From assembly GCF_001632365.1 (NCBI RefSeq), contig NW_024468539.1:186001-250000 (forward strand): 64,000 nt of DNA. The letters run 5' to 3'. Shown here in pieces: positions 16,314 through 61,884 of the stretch (position 1 is its first letter; each line of letters begins with the position of its first letter). The stretch comes from Laetiporus sulphureus 93-53. Its lineage: Eukaryota; Basidiomycota; Agaricomycetes; Polyporales; Laetiporaceae. A program made the translations under genes and the position numbers. The notes beneath the pieces are model-generated. The model searched no databases. It was not told where the DNA came from and saw only the letters and a list, made by a program, of their open reading frames with translations.

Positions 16314-17451
16314 CTATACCAATGTAGCATTCTTCCTGATATTCAGAACGCCATCCAAGTCAACAGCGCTCTCCGGAAGGTCCACCTCATCCCCGATACG
16401 AACCACATGAGAATGATCAATCTGGAGTGTATTTTCCTCTGTCCACTCCAGAATCTTCTCAAAGTTGCGGCATTGATGGACTATGTTGAAGTTCGGAAAG
16501 GGCTTGTCGAAGTCTTCGATCCAGTCGTAGGTGATGACCGCGATATCGCTGGCGCACATGATGTGCTGTCGCAGAGTCTCCAAGCAGTGATCTAGGAATA
16601 TACTTAGCATGCTGAACGCGGAGCATCTGGGAGAAGCTGAATACCGAGATGTTCTCGAAAGAACGACGGCCTTGTCCGCTGAGTCTCTTGGACCTTCGGA
16701 TAGTACTCCAAATATGTGTATTTTCGGATAAGATTCTGAAAGATACAGGTCACTCAGCGCGCTCCATGTTATTAATAGAGACTGACAGGCTTACAAGGCA
16801 ATGCAGGACGTGGAACATGTCCATCGTTCCAAAGTAGCCGCCACCATCCTCTTCGTGAAAGCGTACGTTCGATGGCCTTCCAGGCATGTTCATCCGCTCA
16901 TAATAGTCAGCAGGAAGGCGCACTACATGCACTAGAAATATGGATGATATTTCAGTGAAGATGTGCGCACGATTATGAAAGATGCTGCGTACAGGCATCA
17001 TGGGTAGTGATCCTATCCCAAGCTGCGTCTATCTCAGGAGACGGTGTACCAGAGTAGGGAGATTTGAGGCCGACGGTGCCGTTGAACTGCACAAGTTCAT
17101 ACTCGACAGAGAGATTAGCTGGCGCTGATGGAAACCTCACCACAATGAGAAAGCTGTATGATAACCGACATACGCAGGCAGCAAGATCAGCTCACAGTAC
17201 AACATCGACAATGAGTGATCTCGCGGCGTGCACTCAGGCCTGGAGAGCATGTAAGCTAGCACAACGATGGTATTCACGATAAGGATGCAGCCCAAAAACA
17301 TCCATGACGAGTAACGATGCCATGTCGAATGGCTCGCTACCATTCGAGGAGCGGTCTCAGCAACATGCGAATCTTCAAGCAATTTGTCGGACGAGCCATT
17401 GCGATCGTTGTTCTGAGAAATTGGGGAGTACGTGCTGAAGATCTTCGACAT
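16314..17451 (-). CDS. UstYa/DUF3328-family oxidase-like protein A
   Basis: Five exons: 17451-17196, 17124-16993, 16931-16795, 16735-16645 and 16591-16314, with introns of 53-71 bp whose phases all agree. The product is 297 aa. The layout is classic UstYa: a cytosolic N-terminus, one membrane helix (about residues 50-72, SWMFLGCILIVNTIVVLAYM), then YSPANLSVEYELVQFNG, SPEIDAAWDRI and RLPADYYERMNM, first HxxHC (HVLHC, residues 170-174), NLIRKYTYLEYYP, second HxxHC (HLDHC, 204-208), then LRQHIMCASDIA and a CRNFEKILEW tail. UstYa proteins are membrane-anchored, copper-dependent oxidases that macrocyclise or hydroxylate Kex2-released peptides in ustiloxin-type pathways. Both motifs are intact. It lies head-to-head with the repeat precursor, 1463 bp apart. 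Family assignment is firm; the substrate is inferred from the neighbour. Confidence 0.9.
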
Positions 17452-17594
17452 TGTGTAGGAGCGTGTCAATAGGGAGCTGCAGAGAACAAGTCAATCGAGG
17501 TTGAACGCAGACACGAGGCAGGCCCGCTGTATGTTTCACAGTGCAGGATCACCTGCTTTTTTGCATCAATTGTTCCAAAAGGCGTGATAACCTC

Positions 17595-17605
17595 CGGTCG
17601 GACCG
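17595..17605. promoter_or_regulatory. CGG-N5-CCG palindrome, candidate Zn2Cys6 site
   Basis: Sequence cggtcggaccg, 144 bp upstream of the UstYa-family start codon. It matches the inverted CGG half-site layout used by zinc binuclear cluster activators. Chance occurrence is possible. Confidence 0.3.
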
Positions 17606-18846
17606 CAGCTGACCTAGATAATCACGAGAGCATCGGTGTAGGGGGGGCCAAGAATAAGAACCTATTACAAAGAGCCACTTACACCCGACCTGTACATGTG
17701 CGCGTTGCACCTATTGTCGAATTAGCGGCCAATCCGTTTTTCTGATGGGATCAGAACAGTGCTGAATCCTTGAGAATGAAGATGCATTTTCCCATCAGAG
17801 CCTCGATACCCTGGATCAAGACTTGATCACCCTATTTTCGAGTACGTACTGCGTCTGGACCCGAACGGCTCGTTCCCACCAGTAATGTGAAATAATTCGA
17901 TACAAAGCATGCCAAATGCCGCATTCGTTGTTCCTCCAAAGGCCATCGCGACATCGCCATGCGCAAGGAGCCGTAGTTGGACGTTCTGTTCAAGCCCAGC
18001 GGACCCGAGTATGTCCAAAATCGTGATAGTATCAGAAGTAACGTTATGGCAAGATCCTATTGAGACGTTGACGATTCCCTATCAGGAAGGAGAATCAGAC
18101 CACTCACACTGTTAATAGCCAGCAGTCTCCTTCACGTTGCCGGTCATTAACTCATTCTTCACAATATGATCATAACCGGGATCCTTAAAGTGTCAGTAAC
18201 TCAGGCTCGTCTTCGATGGGCTTTGGGGTAAAACAACGTTGTTACCACTTGAATATCGGAAGTCGTATATAGCAATATATATCGGCTAGAGCCTCCCAAT
18301 ATGAATTTGACAGTGGAGTTGACACCGGAGCCCGACATTGACAGTTGCGCTGATCGGAGCATGTCAGGTGACCGGGCCTCAAAGCTTCAGTGCATGATGG
18401 CGGCGTCAATATTGACACTCATGAGAAAGCGTTGTCCTTTCACTCATGATTGGCCGTGCTGCAAGGTGCGCGATGTTGTGGCATCACTTTTGGGGTGCAA
18501 GACGCAATATCGCTGGCCGAAGGAGTAGGCTGGCCAGACATACCGGTAACTTCGTACGGTACGTGCTTCGCTCCTGCTCCGCTGCCCAGTAGCCTAACTT
18601 CGGTATGCTGCTACCATTACTTAGGGACGTCTTTTTACCGTTGTGTTGATGGAAGTGGCATGTGCATCACCGCCTTATGGCCCACCGACGTCTGGAACAA
18701 CTAGAGTCAAAAGATACCTTCATCATGCACGGCGAATAATCACTCTGATGAGCCATTGCGGCACGTTTTGCCAAAAAAACCAATAACGGATTCGAACTCA
18801 GCTACAGAAAGTCATCGGGTCACGCATGCTGCTAAGGGGTTCGCAA

Positions 18847-18853
18847 TATAAAA
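18847..18853 (+). promoter_or_regulatory. TATA box of the precursor gene
   Basis: TATAAAA, 62 bp upstream of the precursor ATG, at a normal distance for a short 5' UTR and followed by a CACCATG start context. Confidence 0.5.
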
Positions 18854-18914
18854 CGCTGCAAAGGTTCGTGGTCGCCTCGACACCTTGTAGGCACTCCCAG
18901 AGATCCGAGCCACC

Positions 18915-19531
18915 ATGAAATTCGTTGCCCTCAGCATGAAGCTCATCGCTCTTGCGCCCCTCGTCGCACTAGCGGTACATGCGCTGCCGACTAGTGGTAC
19001 TCGAGGATTTAGTAAGATGCGGTCATTCTTCCCACTCAAACCCAGCTAACACAATGGATCCTTATTAACGTAGCTTTGAAGCGTGGTGACCTTGTCGATG
19101 ACACTCCAGATATCTACAAGCGCGAGGGCCTCGTCGATGACACTCCAGATATCTACAAGCGCGAGGGCCTCGTCGATGACACTCCAGAGGTCTACAAACG
19201 TGGCGACCTGGTCGATGATACTCCGGAGTTCTACAAACGCGAGGACCTTACTGATGATACTCCCGAGATTTACAAGCGTGAGGGTCTCGTCGACGACACA
19301 CCTGAGATCTATAAGCGTGGTATGTGGATGTAGATGGAGAATGCATCAGCACTCATCATTTGCTTAGCGACAAAACGCGAGGACCTCATCGACGACACTC
19401 CCGAGATCTATAGGCGGAGCGACCTTGTTGATGACACTCCTGAAATATACAGGCGCGATGACCTTGTGGACGACACCCCGAGCGTATACAAGCGCGGAGA
19501 TCTTGTCGATGACACTCCCAGCGTGTATTGA
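18915..19531 (+). CDS. Kex2-processed multi-core RiPP precursor (dikaritin-like)
   Basis: Three exons (18915-19011, 19074-19319, 19368-19531) with GT-AG introns of 62 and 48 bp, both phase 1, encode 168 aa. A signal peptide (MKFVALSMKLIALAPLVALA, cut near VHA|LP) is followed by a short leader ending LKR, then ten 13-residue units: six in exon 2 and four in exon 3, separated by an extra ATKR. Each unit is an 11-residue core followed by KR or RR, the Kex2 cleavage site. Leu3, Asp5-Asp6-Thr7-Pro8 and Tyr11 are invariant; positions 1, 2, 4, 9 and 10 vary, and all ten cores differ. The last core ends at its Tyr and the stop codon replaces KR. The neighbouring UstYa-family gene suggests oxidative cyclisation involving the Tyr. 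The alternative is a linear secreted repeat peptide of the kexin-processed class. Retention of the second intron would truncate the protein after six cores. Confidence 0.88.
19085..19528 (+). repeat. Ten tandem 39-bp units encoding core peptides
   Basis: Units 1-6 occupy 19085-19318 and units 7-10 occupy 19379-19528, the last being 33 bp because it lacks the Lys-Arg codons. The 48-bp intron splits the array between units 6 and 7. Units differ mostly at codon third positions and at five variable residues, so the array has diverged while the invariant residues were kept. Confidence 0.95.
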
Positions 19532-21115: not shown

Positions 21116-24100
21116 TAAGGCTCCAACCATTTATTTTATTTACACTCCCGAGGTGTAAATAAATGGTATATAGTAAATAGATGTATATATATAGTATATA
21201 TGGTTTATATATGGTTTATATGGTTTTTTGTCACGTCTTTTGACAAAAAGTTCTATTCAACAGTAAACAGGCCCTGATGAATCCATTGCTTTACACATGT
21301 TGCTTCTGTAATTGTTGAGGCCTTCAAGGAGCTGCGTGCATCAGCACACACATGACGACTGGCAGAAAACAAGTGTTCGACTGCAACACTTGCACCAGAA
21401 ATGGCAAGAAAATCTCTTGCCATATGAGAAATGACAGGAAATTCATGTTCATGAGCCTGTACATTAATTGACATAAGAAAGAGACTTTGAACACTCTCAA
21501 AATAAGGATTACCTTCCACCAGACAAGAGGTGCATATGGATCACCTTTTCCCCCCTACTCCACGCTTCCATCTCTCAAGCTCTGACTCAGCTATGATAGG
21601 AGTATCAGCAGCAAAGTCAACGTCAGATGTAAGAGAGTCCAGAAATGTCTGTGTGACAGTTGCAATGTCACCTGTGGCTTATCTACAACCTTCGGACCAG
21701 TCTTCTTATACTGTTGAAAGACATATTCGAAAAGAGTCCAGGCATGTTCCTTGCAATCTGCTCTAAGCCTTGCAAACCATGCTTGATGGAGTGATGAATG
21801 GCACACTATTTACAGCTGTCAATAAGGAATGCACCATAAAGAAGTACTATGATAACTCTGTTGGAATCTGGGTGCGGAGCACAGATGCAAGAGGCCCCAG
21901 TGCGACCTGTGTCACCAGCGTGGGAGAATAGTAGCGTGCATGTATATAATAGAGCATGGCTACAATGGGATGGGCCATCAGTTTGGCCCCATGGAGCCAT
22001 CTTCTAGAGAGTGGGTGACTCCTGAATTTCTGGCCACGCAGCGGGCTGGCCGGGAAAGTTAACAAACTCACCAGTTGCAACAACATTGTGTTGGCAGTCG
22101 AGCACCTTCACATAGTATATGTTGAGCTTAGACAAGCCTGCAGTAGTGGCATGCTTAAGGGATGGTAGCGTTGTCATTTCAATGGCCCGCTCTAGTGTTC
22201 CTTGCATGTGGTGGTACATTGGCAACACCCATGGCAACGTTGGCGTGTCCGCAAGGAACATATGTCGAGTGACAACTGTGAATGCCTATAAGAAGGCATA
22301 AGCTCATTAAATAGCAGAAAACATAGTGAAAACGAACCCCAATGATTTCACATAGCTGCTGTAACAGGTTCCAATCTGACGGTGTCAGTGTCAGAGCTTC
22401 TAGCTTTTCTCGTGCTGCTACCCAGCCATTAATTGCCTGTCATCAACAATCAGCGCAGCATATAACATATGTAAGAGCATAGACTGACCTTCTTCAACAG
22501 TAACACATGTTCTATCATGGCATGAGTGCAATTCCAGCGTGTTGGCACATCTCAGATAGGCATCAGGGTACTCAGTTCCCTTCCACCATCTTGAGCATAT
22601 TGACTGCTATAGTGCTCCTTGGCAAGCTTGCAGAAAGATGAGTGATGCTGCGGTGAGCTAATGATCTTTCAGACAAATATGCACAGCTGATTGGCACGTA
22701 TGATGAGCATGAGATGAATAAACCAACTGCTGTTCACACCTTCTGTACAGCCATGAGCTCGCCTTCAACTGGTTCATCTATCTGACCCTCTACCAAATTC
22801 TCTGCAGCAGCCATATCATCAGCCTTCACTGTCTCTTCCTTTTCAAGCTTTTTAAGGTCTTCATCCACATCAGGCCTGTAATGGAATGAGAGGAACTTGT
22901 ACAGCAGGTAATAATCATCTTCGTCTGGATCCTTGGCTTCACCGAGAGCACTCAAGATCTTCTGAACAACCAGATTGACGATGTGTGCAAGGCACCAGAT
23001 TTGACCATTGGTTGCATTGAATGGAATACCATAGCATTCCATGAGGATTGGCCCAAGTGTTCGTGCAAGCACATCATTGATGCTCGCATTGTCCATGGTC
23101 AGCACTATAAAGTGATGGCATGATTATGCTATCAGTACCCTGGTCACAAAGATGATCACAAAGTCACTTATTTTGTTCAGGCTTCCTCGTTTTGAGGCTG
23201 AGTTGACAAATGCTTTTGTGGCCTCCACACCTTCATGCTCATTATCTCCTAGATGACGAAGATCCAGAAAATGCTCCACAAGCTTCCAGTCATCATCAAT
23301 GAAGTTCGCAATGGTGCCAGCAAATGTAAAGACCATTTGTGGGGTGCTCTAAGTGTCCATCGAGTAGGAAATCTTTGACTTCACAGCCTGCAATGCATGT
23401 CAGCTATGTCAACATATCATAATTATCATGTATGTTAGGACTCACCGCAAGCTCCTTGATGAGCGCAGCATGCAGATCAGCAAAAATTCATGCCAGAATG
23501 TTGCACACAGTGGTGTCTGTTGGTAGAATGAATTTGATGCCCAGGTAGTGGAAAAGTCGGTGCAGACCAGGGGCTTCTCCAGTTGTGAAAGGCAGGTTCT
23601 CCTCAAGGAGCCATGCTGCGAACAAGTGCAGGAACCCCTTTCGAGTGGGATCATGCTTTGGGTTAAGCCAGCCATTCTCAAGGAACTTCTCCATCAGTCG
23701 TGCACTGGCTGGAGTGTAGATGCACTTGATTGATCGACTCAGATTGTCATTGTTTTGTGGGATCGTCTTGGCAACCTTTGCCTCTTTGACATTGTCTACA
23801 TGCTTTGAATTCATGTGTGTCATCAGGTTGCCCAAGAAAGGCTTTGGCCATTCACCTTTCCATTCGTCCACTTAATGAATGACCGTGCATTCCCTTCATC
23901 CAATGTAGTGAGTCCAAGCACGAGTCGGCATCATACAACGAGAAAAAATGTGCTCACACATTACAGTGCTTGCAAACAAAGAGCCATCACTTGCCACTCT
24001 TAGGGTCGAGAATGGCCTTTGGACCAGTTCAGTGTTGCAATACCTTGTTGCGAGGCCCACACATTCCAGTGCATCTGTTGTCCATGCTTTCTTTCACTTG

Positions 24101-25664
24101 AACCTGCCACAGCACTGTCTCACCATTCAATGTCTCTGCGATGGCAGGCTGGCTTCATGTTGTCTTCTCTGTCACTTTTTGTGGATGCTGAGATCATTTA
24201 TGCTTGCCTTTTGATGTACGCAAATGCTATGTAGAATGTGAGCACTCCTTGGAATGTCAAGGCAAAGATTTTACCTTCTTCTGTACCATTGGCATCCCTG
24301 CTGACATTCCACTCCCATTTCCCTTGTCTGTCTCTGACCCATCATCTGACTCAATCACCTTTCACTTTTCTCCTTGAGGCTTGCGCTTTTTTCTAGTTAA
24401 GTGCAAAGCCAGTTCCCAATGCAACATAGAACATACCAGCTGAGTGTCACTCTCCGACATCTCAACCCATCATCATCGAGGTCATAAAGAGAAATTGGCG
24501 AAATCGAATGGTCACGATCATCAGCAGCAGGCCAGTATGTCTTGTCTCTGGGGTTGTCTTTAGTGGGTAGATCTTGATGTATATCATTGTATCAGTGAAC
24601 GGTGTACTCTTTCCATAGATATGTGTTTGGCTTACCTCAAAGTGCAAGGATCAGCGTCAACTCTGCCTTGAGCACCACTTTGCTGGTGCTCTTCAATTTG
24701 TATGCCTTCATTACACTTTTCACGGGTTTCTGAAAACTTCTGAGCCAAGTACAGATACACAGATAAAGCAATAACTCACAGTGCGTTCAGTCAACCTTGC
24801 GTCTACTTCAGAGCCATCATTGATGGGTGCTGACACATCCTTGAGAACGCTGTGATCATCTGATGCTGTGCGCGCTTATTGTCATTCGTGAACATCTGAT
24901 GCTGGATGCGCTTGCTGGCATTCAGATGTGAAAGTCAACATGGGCATGGGATCCTTGATGCTCATATTTCCGTTTTGTCGACTGCACACAGCCAGTGAGG
25001 ATAGCACAAAGCACTGTTCAATAAGATGCGTACCATAACAACTCCAGTTCATTTTGCAGATGGGCTAGTTTGATAGCCATCAGGTCATAGAACCTCACAA
25101 GGGCTTTTTCATCAGCTATCCTTTGCAGATACACAATGACAGCCCCCATTCCGTGACGTCCTCAGCGAATATGATGCAAATGGCCATTCTCATCATGACA
25201 ATCCTCAGCAAAGAGAATGCTGAAGCGACGATTGAACTTTTCCCAAAGTGAGTCACCGTTGATGGCGGTAATCACCTCATAGATTTGGTCTTGTTTTGTT
25301 GCTTCAAGTGTAGAGGGAGGGGGAGCTTCTTGCTGAATGTTGTGATGGCATCAACAAGGCTGTTGATGTCATCAATTGCTGTGGGAGGCATGGGTGCAGA
25401 TATAGCATAGAATTCTGTTGTAGATTTTCTAGCAATTGATGATCAGCTGTCAGCGGCTTCTGTCTAAAATATGCCATTCAAATAGCTCACCGGTGTGCTG
25501 CCAAATTTGGCAATGCACGTTCAATAGCCTCATGTCACTATAAACCCATTTATACTATATATATACACATATTTACCATGTACAGCATCATTGTAAGTAA
25601 ATGGACATAGTAAATGGTTGAAACCATTTATACATGGTAAATAAAATAAATGGTTGGAGCCTTA
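21116..25664 (-). mobile_element. hAT (Ac-like) transposon, full length, decayed
   Basis: The ends are a perfect 28-bp inverted repeat (21116-21143 and 25637-25664, outer sequence taaggctccaacc), flanked by identical 8-bp duplications ctattggc (21108-21115 and 25665-25672), the hAT hallmark. The 4549-bp element carries a minus-strand transposase with several stops. Subterminal zones at both ends are AT-rich, with tatata-type runs and short inverted copies of tttatttac. Confidence 0.95.
21253..23871 (-). pseudogene. hAT transposase remains
   Basis: Pieces in order on the minus strand: a BED-finger-like start with HMNSKH (about 23870-23490), FAGTIANFIDDDWKLVEHFLDL (23336-23124), the catalytic-core string LTMDNASINDVLARTL and WCLAHIVNLVVQKIL (23105-22734), LPWVLPMYHHMQGTLERAI (22261-22004), and the C-terminal dimerisation domain SHMARDFLAISGASVAVEHLFSASRHVC (21519-21253, shown here as a 20-plus-residue block by position; key residues VEHLFS). 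Introns and stop codons interrupt the frame. The layout matches Ac-like hAT transposases; an intact protein is not encoded. Confidence 0.85.
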
Positions 25665-61203: not shown

Positions 61204-61884
61204 TTATTCTTCGTCTTTCGGCCAGTGCCTCTGATTCTCGACGATGTAATCATAGACCTGCGTCCAATCCCTGCAGACATGAGTGACCTCGGCGCCAGTT
61301 TCCAAGGTAATGTCCGCATTGCAGAGAGCTCCCTGTCGCAAGAAATTCAAGCAATGCCCACTGTGCGAGTTCGGTCCATGGAGTAGACCTTGTCGGATCA
61401 TCTCTAGGCAATGTATCTGATGAAACATCGCGACCGCAAACATACGTGCTGAACCAAAGATTGACTGTTCAGTGATAATGAAAGCAAAGGGGGCTCAACG
61501 TTTTACCATCAGGTCCCAGGCGCACAAAGCCGTGACCTTTCGGGAAGTGGTCGATAGCCTGCCACTCATGCCAGGCTATCGGCCATGTCTGGCTGTAATG
61601 GTGGTTCTTTGCAAAGTCCTCGAATGTCATGCCTACTGCATCGACACGCAGAGGCAGCTCCGTTGGATGATCATCGCCGTTATATGCTGCGTACGTCGAG
61701 GTCAGTCCCTTATGTACCGAACGAAAGAGATGCGTTTCGCGTTGCATGACTTACTGTAGTGACTATCGTCGATAAAGCGTCCGCCGCGCACCCGTCGAAG
61801 GGAAAGGCCATTGAATACGAGACTGACGACGAGCGCGACGAGCGCGACGTGGAGTGACTTCCCTGACAGTCGAGAGACGAACAT
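61204..61884 (-). CDS. UstYa/DUF3328-family protein B (short form)
   Basis: Exons 61884-61755, 61686-61507 and 61448-61204 (introns 68 and 58 bp, both phase 1) encode 184 aa. The start ATG at 61884 precedes a membrane helix (LHVALVALVVSLVFNGLSL). The conserved blocks are YTYNGDDHPTELPL (across the first intron), GFVRLGPDARMFAVAMF (across the second), first HxxHC (HQIHC, residues 113-117), second HxxHC (HSGHC, 132-136), LNFLRQGALCNADITLE and CRDWTQVYDYI. This is the short Agaricomycete branch of the DUF3328 family and all expected blocks are present. The role is presumably oxidative peptide modification at a secretory membrane, by analogy with UstYa. It lies about 42 kb from the repeat precursor, so partnership is unproven. 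Confidence 0.88.

Follow-up and report, generated by a model that had tools for sequence, protein, structure and literature searches.

Laetiporus sulphureus is a wood-decay polypore. A 64,000-nucleotide stretch of its genome (strain 93-53; hereafter the window) holds a short gene that encodes ten near-identical peptides between dibasic sites and that lies directly beside an intact gene of the UstYa (DUF3328) family. The locus raises the question of whether such peptides are cut out by a Kex2-type protease and then modified by the neighboring oxidase. The reading we favor, to which we assign a probability of roughly 0.6, is that the gene encodes a Kex2-processed multi-core RiPP precursor whose peptides are most likely linked by the adjacent UstYa protein at their C-terminal Tyr. 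Statements about published work refer throughout to the accessible portions of each source.

Structure of the precursor gene

The features of the locus are collected in Table 1. Splicing was inferred from the sequence, and both predicted introns fall in the same phase; the span and the three-exon layout given in an earlier note on this DNA were correct. Retention of intron 2 is predicted to yield a 118-aa six-core product, and skipping of exon 2 an in-frame four-core precursor. The N-terminus of the predicted protein is hydrophobic (MKFVALSMKLIALAPLVALAVHA; 11-residue hydropathy peak of 2.72), and VHA was read by eye before LP near the end of this segment. The earlier description of a multi-core, Kex2-type precursor is supported, with a start that is signal-peptide-like.

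Two details of the repeat differ from that description, in which ten units were each followed by KR or RR. Ten 11-residue cores are present, of which nine are followed by a dibasic pair and the tenth directly by the stop codon. In addition, a tetrapeptide, ATKR, separates cores 6 and 7 at the junction of exons 2 and 3. An xxKR piece (TLKR, ATKR) opens both of these exons directly ahead of a core. The two exons may have arisen by duplication of a single module, and the unusual ATKR spacer would then be accounted for.

Table 1. Positions of the precursor gene, the UstYa-family genes and associated features in the window
Feature	Position	Strand	Description
UstYa-family gene 1	16314..17451	-	five exons, 297 aa; PF11807 E 5.4e-58
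UstYa gene 1 exons	17451-17196, 17124-16993, 16931-16795, 16735-16645, 16591-16314	-	
Divergent intergenic region	17452..18914	.	1.46 kb between UstYa and precursor start codons
TATAAA	18847..18852	+	begins 68 nt upstream of precursor start codon
Precursor gene	18915-19531	+	3 predicted exons, 168-residue protein
Precursor exon 1	18915..19011	+	start codon, signal-peptide-like segment, first part of leader
Signal-peptide-like segment, residues 1-23	about 18915-18983	+	in precursor exon 1
Intron 1	19012..19073	+	predicted; GTAAGA...ACGTAG, 62 nt, phase 1, CTAAC branch-like site
Precursor exon 2	19074..19319	+	end of leader (TLKR), then cores 1-6
Intron 2	19320..19367	+	predicted; GTATGT...CTTAG, 48 nt, phase 1
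Precursor exon 3	19368..19531	+	ATKR spacer, cores 7-10, stop
Second UstYa-family gene	61204..61884	-	184 aa (model), two HXXHC motifs, PF11807 E 2.8e-14

Sequence and conservation of the ten cores

In order, the cores are GDLVDDTPDIY, EGLVDDTPDIY, EGLVDDTPEVY, GDLVDDTPEFY, EDLTDDTPEIY, EGLVDDTPEIY, EDLIDDTPEIY, SDLVDDTPEIY, DDLVDDTPSVY and GDLVDDTPSVY, with the general form [G/E/S/D][D/G]L[V/T/I]DDTP[E/D/S][I/V/F]Y. Six positions (L3, D5, D6, T7, P8 and Y11) are identical in all ten. Position 4 is always a beta-branched residue (Val, Thr or Ile), position 10 is Ile, Val or Phe, and positions 1, 2 and 9 carry acidic or small residues.

The codons of the invariant residues vary; P8, for example, is encoded by CCA, CCC, CCG and CCT. 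Comparison between cores gave a pS of 0.66, a pN of 0.16 and an overall dN/dS of 0.11, with 0.025 over positions 3-8 and 0 for Y11, values that are descriptive because the core pairs are mutually non-independent. As residues have stayed invariant over diverged synonymous sites, it is the peptide that is conserved, and the cores are under purifying selection.

The spacing is equally regular. Of the ten intervals that separate the 11 dibasic sites, nine measure 13 residues, and nine equal intervals were reached in none of 20,000 residue shuffles (maximum, three). When 890 six-frame segments of at least 40 aa from the window were scored in the same way, scores of 3 or more occurred only in the two parts of the precursor gene. 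The protein thus has the near-identical repeats bounded by KR or RR that mark a Kex2-processed repeat protein (KEP). Weak repeat-scan matches in minus-strand frames at 19068-19247 (the antisense of the repeats), 21344-21442 and 24806-24934 were rejected.

Relatives of the precursor

No homologue was found at E ≤ 1 among the 7995 protein-database candidates sharing most words with the precursor, a search for which proteins of about 92-294 aa were eligible and which longer or fused gene models would escape. Pfam matches to OB_HELZ2 and Osmo_CC fell below the cut-offs and were taken as composition noise. The locus itself had no protein record among the candidates scored, which suggests that the gene is not annotated.

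Nor did a protein search of the genome find a clear second copy. Besides the precursor itself, it returned four weak matches (E 0.06-3.3) to one repetitive 687-aa frame on contig C51, where arginine-rich frames, containing similar stretches flanked by RR pairs, were picked out by the repeat scan as well; this region was rejected as a relative on its weak scores and low complexity. A 14-base pattern had two further sites in the genome, on C13 and C25. Neither was recovered by the protein search, and both are at chance level, since the total for a reversed control pattern was three hits.

The adjacent UstYa gene and its counterparts in the genome

UstYa-family gene 1, transcribed divergently from the precursor, is intact, in support of the UstYa-family gene that the earlier note invoked, and its product carries HXXHC motifs at residues 170 and 204. 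The locus thus pairs a precursor with a clustered UstYa/DUF3328 protein that has two such motifs, an arrangement expected of dikaritins. A single hydrophobic span lies near the N-terminus of the product (residues 51-69, with a 19-residue hydropathy of 2.44). Over 297 aa the product matches a deposited protein of L. sulphureus 93-53 at 100% identity, and this strain proved to be the suspected basidiomycete host. None of the six HXXHC residues varies among the 16 UstYa sequences aligned, gene 1 included; the alignment holds 16 of the 22 sequences found, without P0002, P0009, P0013, P0017, P0019 and P0022. An organism label was available for 18 of 22 hits, of which one was from Chaetomium (34% identity) and 17 were from genera that we take to be Agaricomycetes. 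The nearest relatives of the protein come from Taiwanofungus camphoratus, Gymnopilus dilepis and Suillus. A search of solved structures gave none related by sequence (best E 0.34, a COP9 subunit).

Across the genome (38.6 Mb, 124 contigs), in which the window is G000:C30:186001-250000, PF11807 gave 22 exon-level matches; grouped by position and by eye, these represent about 18 genes, located on nine contigs. At this density, a random site has about a 0.14% chance that a UstYa gene starts within 1.5 kb. A six-frame repeat scan of 117,608 bases (overlaps counted) flanking the other UstYa genes yielded no further convincing multi-core precursor; it covered similar units within one unspliced frame in flanks of about 1.5 to 6 kb, and would miss precursors that are small, spliced, single-core or more distant. 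Its one weak hit, at L038, was rejected as a single similar pair with no ordered repeat.

The second UstYa-family gene of the window is 42 kb from the precursor, and nothing ties the two together. It is adjoined by a small plus-strand gene model (60381 to about 60652) with a signal-peptide-like start, whose product has 45 aa and ends in FYAAAPQQ or, by another splice reading, stops after 31 residues; this model is possibly a single-core precursor. Also beside it is a plus-strand model from 58780 to about 59684 encoding at least 264 aa, with an N-terminal hydrophobic span and no Pfam match over the cut-off (weak But2). Elsewhere, four UstYa-family genes lie within 7 kb on one contig (G000:C55:62827-69683), and two are found at G000:C13:634839-643172, where an S10 carboxypeptidase domain was matched some 4 kb away from the closer of the two. 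Contig C93 carries about three, and for every one of them at least one match runs through stop codons, possibly because of introns.

Processing machinery and window context

One kexin-type P_proprotein match exceeded the cut-off in the genome, on contig C7, and supplies the kexin-type protease that a KEP assignment calls for, at the level of a domain rather than as an identified Kex2. S10 carboxypeptidase domains gave 19 exon-level matches across the genome, likewise a domain assignment rather than an identification of Kex1. Both results count in favor of the cross-linked, Kex2-cut reading. The single P-domain match counts against it when set beside the three kex2 genes described for Agaricomycetes (PMC9769878).

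Both exon-level tyrosinase matches in the genome are on C76, so none was found near the precursor, and no methyltransferase, peptidase or transporter was detected among 24 window sequences scanned, a subset of the ORFs in which some overlap. These results also count against our reading, and the locus does not fit the older definition of a dikaritin cluster, which includes tyrosinase, methyltransferase and peptidase or transporter genes. According to PMC12048977, functional dikaritin clusters exist that lack one or more of these other genes; the same source cites the DUF3328 protein as class-defining. It also describes UstYa-family proteins that serve non-RiPP pathways, a further point against.

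The left end of the window contains reverse transcriptase, dUTPase and integrase domains, read as a Gypsy-type retroelement, and DDE_3 and hAT-dimerisation transposase domains occur further right. Several long ORFs lie on both strands between 9203 and 13670; none of the four that were scanned matched Pfam at E ≤ 0.1. Searches of the window for Rfam families and tRNAs were negative.

Proposed processing and alternative explanations

The predicted gene structure, the repeats, the cleavage sites and the intact UstYa neighbor make up the anatomy of the locus as read from its DNA. On this basis, the gene would be transcribed and its product would enter the secretory pathway by way of the putative signal peptide. 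Kex2 would then cleave behind every KR or RR pair, and trimming of the basic residues by a Kex1-type carboxypeptidase would leave ten acidic 11-residue peptides with a biological role. By analogy with the UstYa family, the membrane-anchored oxidase would act on these peptides in the secretory lumen and link the invariant C-terminal Tyr to an upstream residue, with position 4 or Leu3 as candidate partners.

Attack of a C-terminal Tyr on Val/Thr/Ile4 or Leu3 is plausible given the varied link geometries of known peptides (PMC9233826). In ustiloxin and phomopsin the link connects Tyr at the N-terminus with an internal Ile; in victorin it connects the C-terminal Phe with an internal Leu, and in epichloecyclins an N-terminal Ile with an internal Tyr. 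A more specific version, in which the locus is a basidiomycete dikaritin-class system whose single UstYa protein cyclises ten acidic undecapeptides through Tyr11 onto the beta-branched position 4 to give an acidic macrocycle, is tentative, and we place it below even odds.

The main rival, which we regard as less likely, holds that the peptides stay linear and act in signaling, defence or interaction, with the UstYa gene coincidental or acting elsewhere. Agaricomycete Kex2-repeat peptides have been detected by mass spectrometry in linear or minimally modified form, among them the Tyr-ended Coprinopsis peptide QIPAELPTKSINGNIEPY, found linear and pyroglutamated (PMC9769878). In a survey of 1680 Kex2-repeat genes from basidiomycetes, about 94% lacked a DUF3328 gene within 15 genes, and its authors offer two possibilities, a different cyclisation factor in Basidiomycota or hardly any cyclisation there (PMC7329392). 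Against a purely linear fate stand the direct divergent adjacency, at its low chance per site, and the Tyr kept in every core. That the repeat scan gave no convincing multi-core precursor at the remaining UstYa genes counts on both sides: for the linear reading, together with the presence of about 18 such genes in the genome, and for cross-linking. The six invariant core positions, the low dN/dS and the intact adjacent UstYa gene count on the same side. So do two results of PMC7329392, in which Tyr occurs in 65.6% of the repeat sequences of DUF3328-linked Kex2-repeat proteins versus 38.2% in others, and the position immediately next to the precursor has the highest DUF3328 counts.

An alpha-pheromone-like precursor, as proposed for some Basidiomycota, would share the layout of signal-peptide-like start, repeats and dibasic sites. 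Kex2-repeat proteins with pheromone features do occur in this phylum (PMC6339444), and DUF3328 neighbors were recorded for 17 of 76 homologues of six putative pheromones (PMC7329392), so that such a neighbor alone does not exclude the pheromone class. However, an XA or XP dipeptide follows none of the 11 dibasic sites, and the STE13 signature expected of alpha-pheromones is therefore absent, which makes this origin improbable.

Less probable again is a structural, repellent-like repeat protein that Kex2 would cut into fragments coating the cell wall, by comparison with Ustilago Rep1: the Kex2-cut repeat layout is shared, but the cores here are short, strongly acidic and proline-containing. Decayed or untranslated repeat DNA is hardly credible even in a region with retroelement and transposase domains and for a locus with no protein record, as the frame is open across three exons, the introns agree in phase, and synonymous sites are highly diverged at a low dN/dS.

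Comparison with known systems

Like the L. sulphureus locus, the dikaritins of Ascomycota (ustiloxin, phomopsin, asperipin-2a) combine a multi-core Kex2 precursor with a UstYa-type oxidase bearing two HXXHC motifs, and Tyr is the likely cross-link residue in both. The Laetiporus locus differs in its basidiomycete host, in being known from genes alone and, unlike ustiloxin and phomopsin, in having no tyrosinase found near it. Set against the dikaritin cores, some of them described in PMC9233826, the Laetiporus cores were, as the earlier note had held, unlike those of ustiloxin, phomopsin and asperipin: the Tyr is C-terminal in an acidic 11-residue core, in contrast to the N-terminal Tyr of ustiloxin and phomopsin. 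Victorin and the epichloecyclins, also from Ascomycota, likewise derive from multi-core precursors; they differ in core length, sequence and host, and the C-terminal aromatic residue in Laetiporus is Tyr.

Closer parallels exist among basidiomycetes. A 2020 survey found DUF3328 genes within 15 genes of 103 of 1680 basidiomycete Kex2-repeat proteins (PMC7329392), and these systems resemble ours in their cores at dibasic sites, adjoining DUF3328/UstYa gene and Tyr within the core, but differ in core sequence. The earlier view of a dikaritin-like precursor is sound as regards a multi-core precursor beside a UstYa gene, whose peptides would be dikaritins if they are cross-linked. It goes too far in treating the pairing as a feature of ascomycetes that is new to Agaricomycetes. 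A table in the survey lists Laetiporus for another type, without DUF3328 neighbors. Sixteen UstYa-like genes in Pleurotus have been called probably involved in dikaritin production (PMC8893723). The Kex2-repeat peptides of Coprinopsis, Lentinula and Pleurotus (PMC9769878) also come from Kex2-repeat precursors in Agaricomycetes, but are linear or minimally modified and differ in sequence from the Laetiporus cores; UstY and DUF3328 do not appear in the main text of that study.

The combination of precursor and UstYa gene is thus already known in Basidiomycota, and it is the core family that appears to be new. This rests on the lack of a match among the candidates scored, together with the absence of the strings DDTP, VDDT and TPEIY from the main text of PMC7329392 and of DDTP and VDDT from that of PMC9769878. 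In a partial literature search, we found no chemically characterised UstYa-dependent basidiomycete peptide.

Implications

Laetiporus sulphureus is edible and can be cultured. For the core EGLVDDTPEIY, the computed [M+H]+ is 1250.579 (1250.5787) when linear versus 1248.563 (1248.5630) for the form minus 2 H; for GDLVDDTPSVY the corresponding values are 1180.5368 and 1178.5212. If the macrocycle between Tyr11 and position 4 is real, it would be a ring type absent from the fungal RiPPs compared here, as these are described in the accessible literature. Whether Basidiomycota cyclise Kex2-repeat peptides at all was left open by PMC7329392, and the compact precursor-oxidase pair, with its predicted masses, makes a direct test of this possible.
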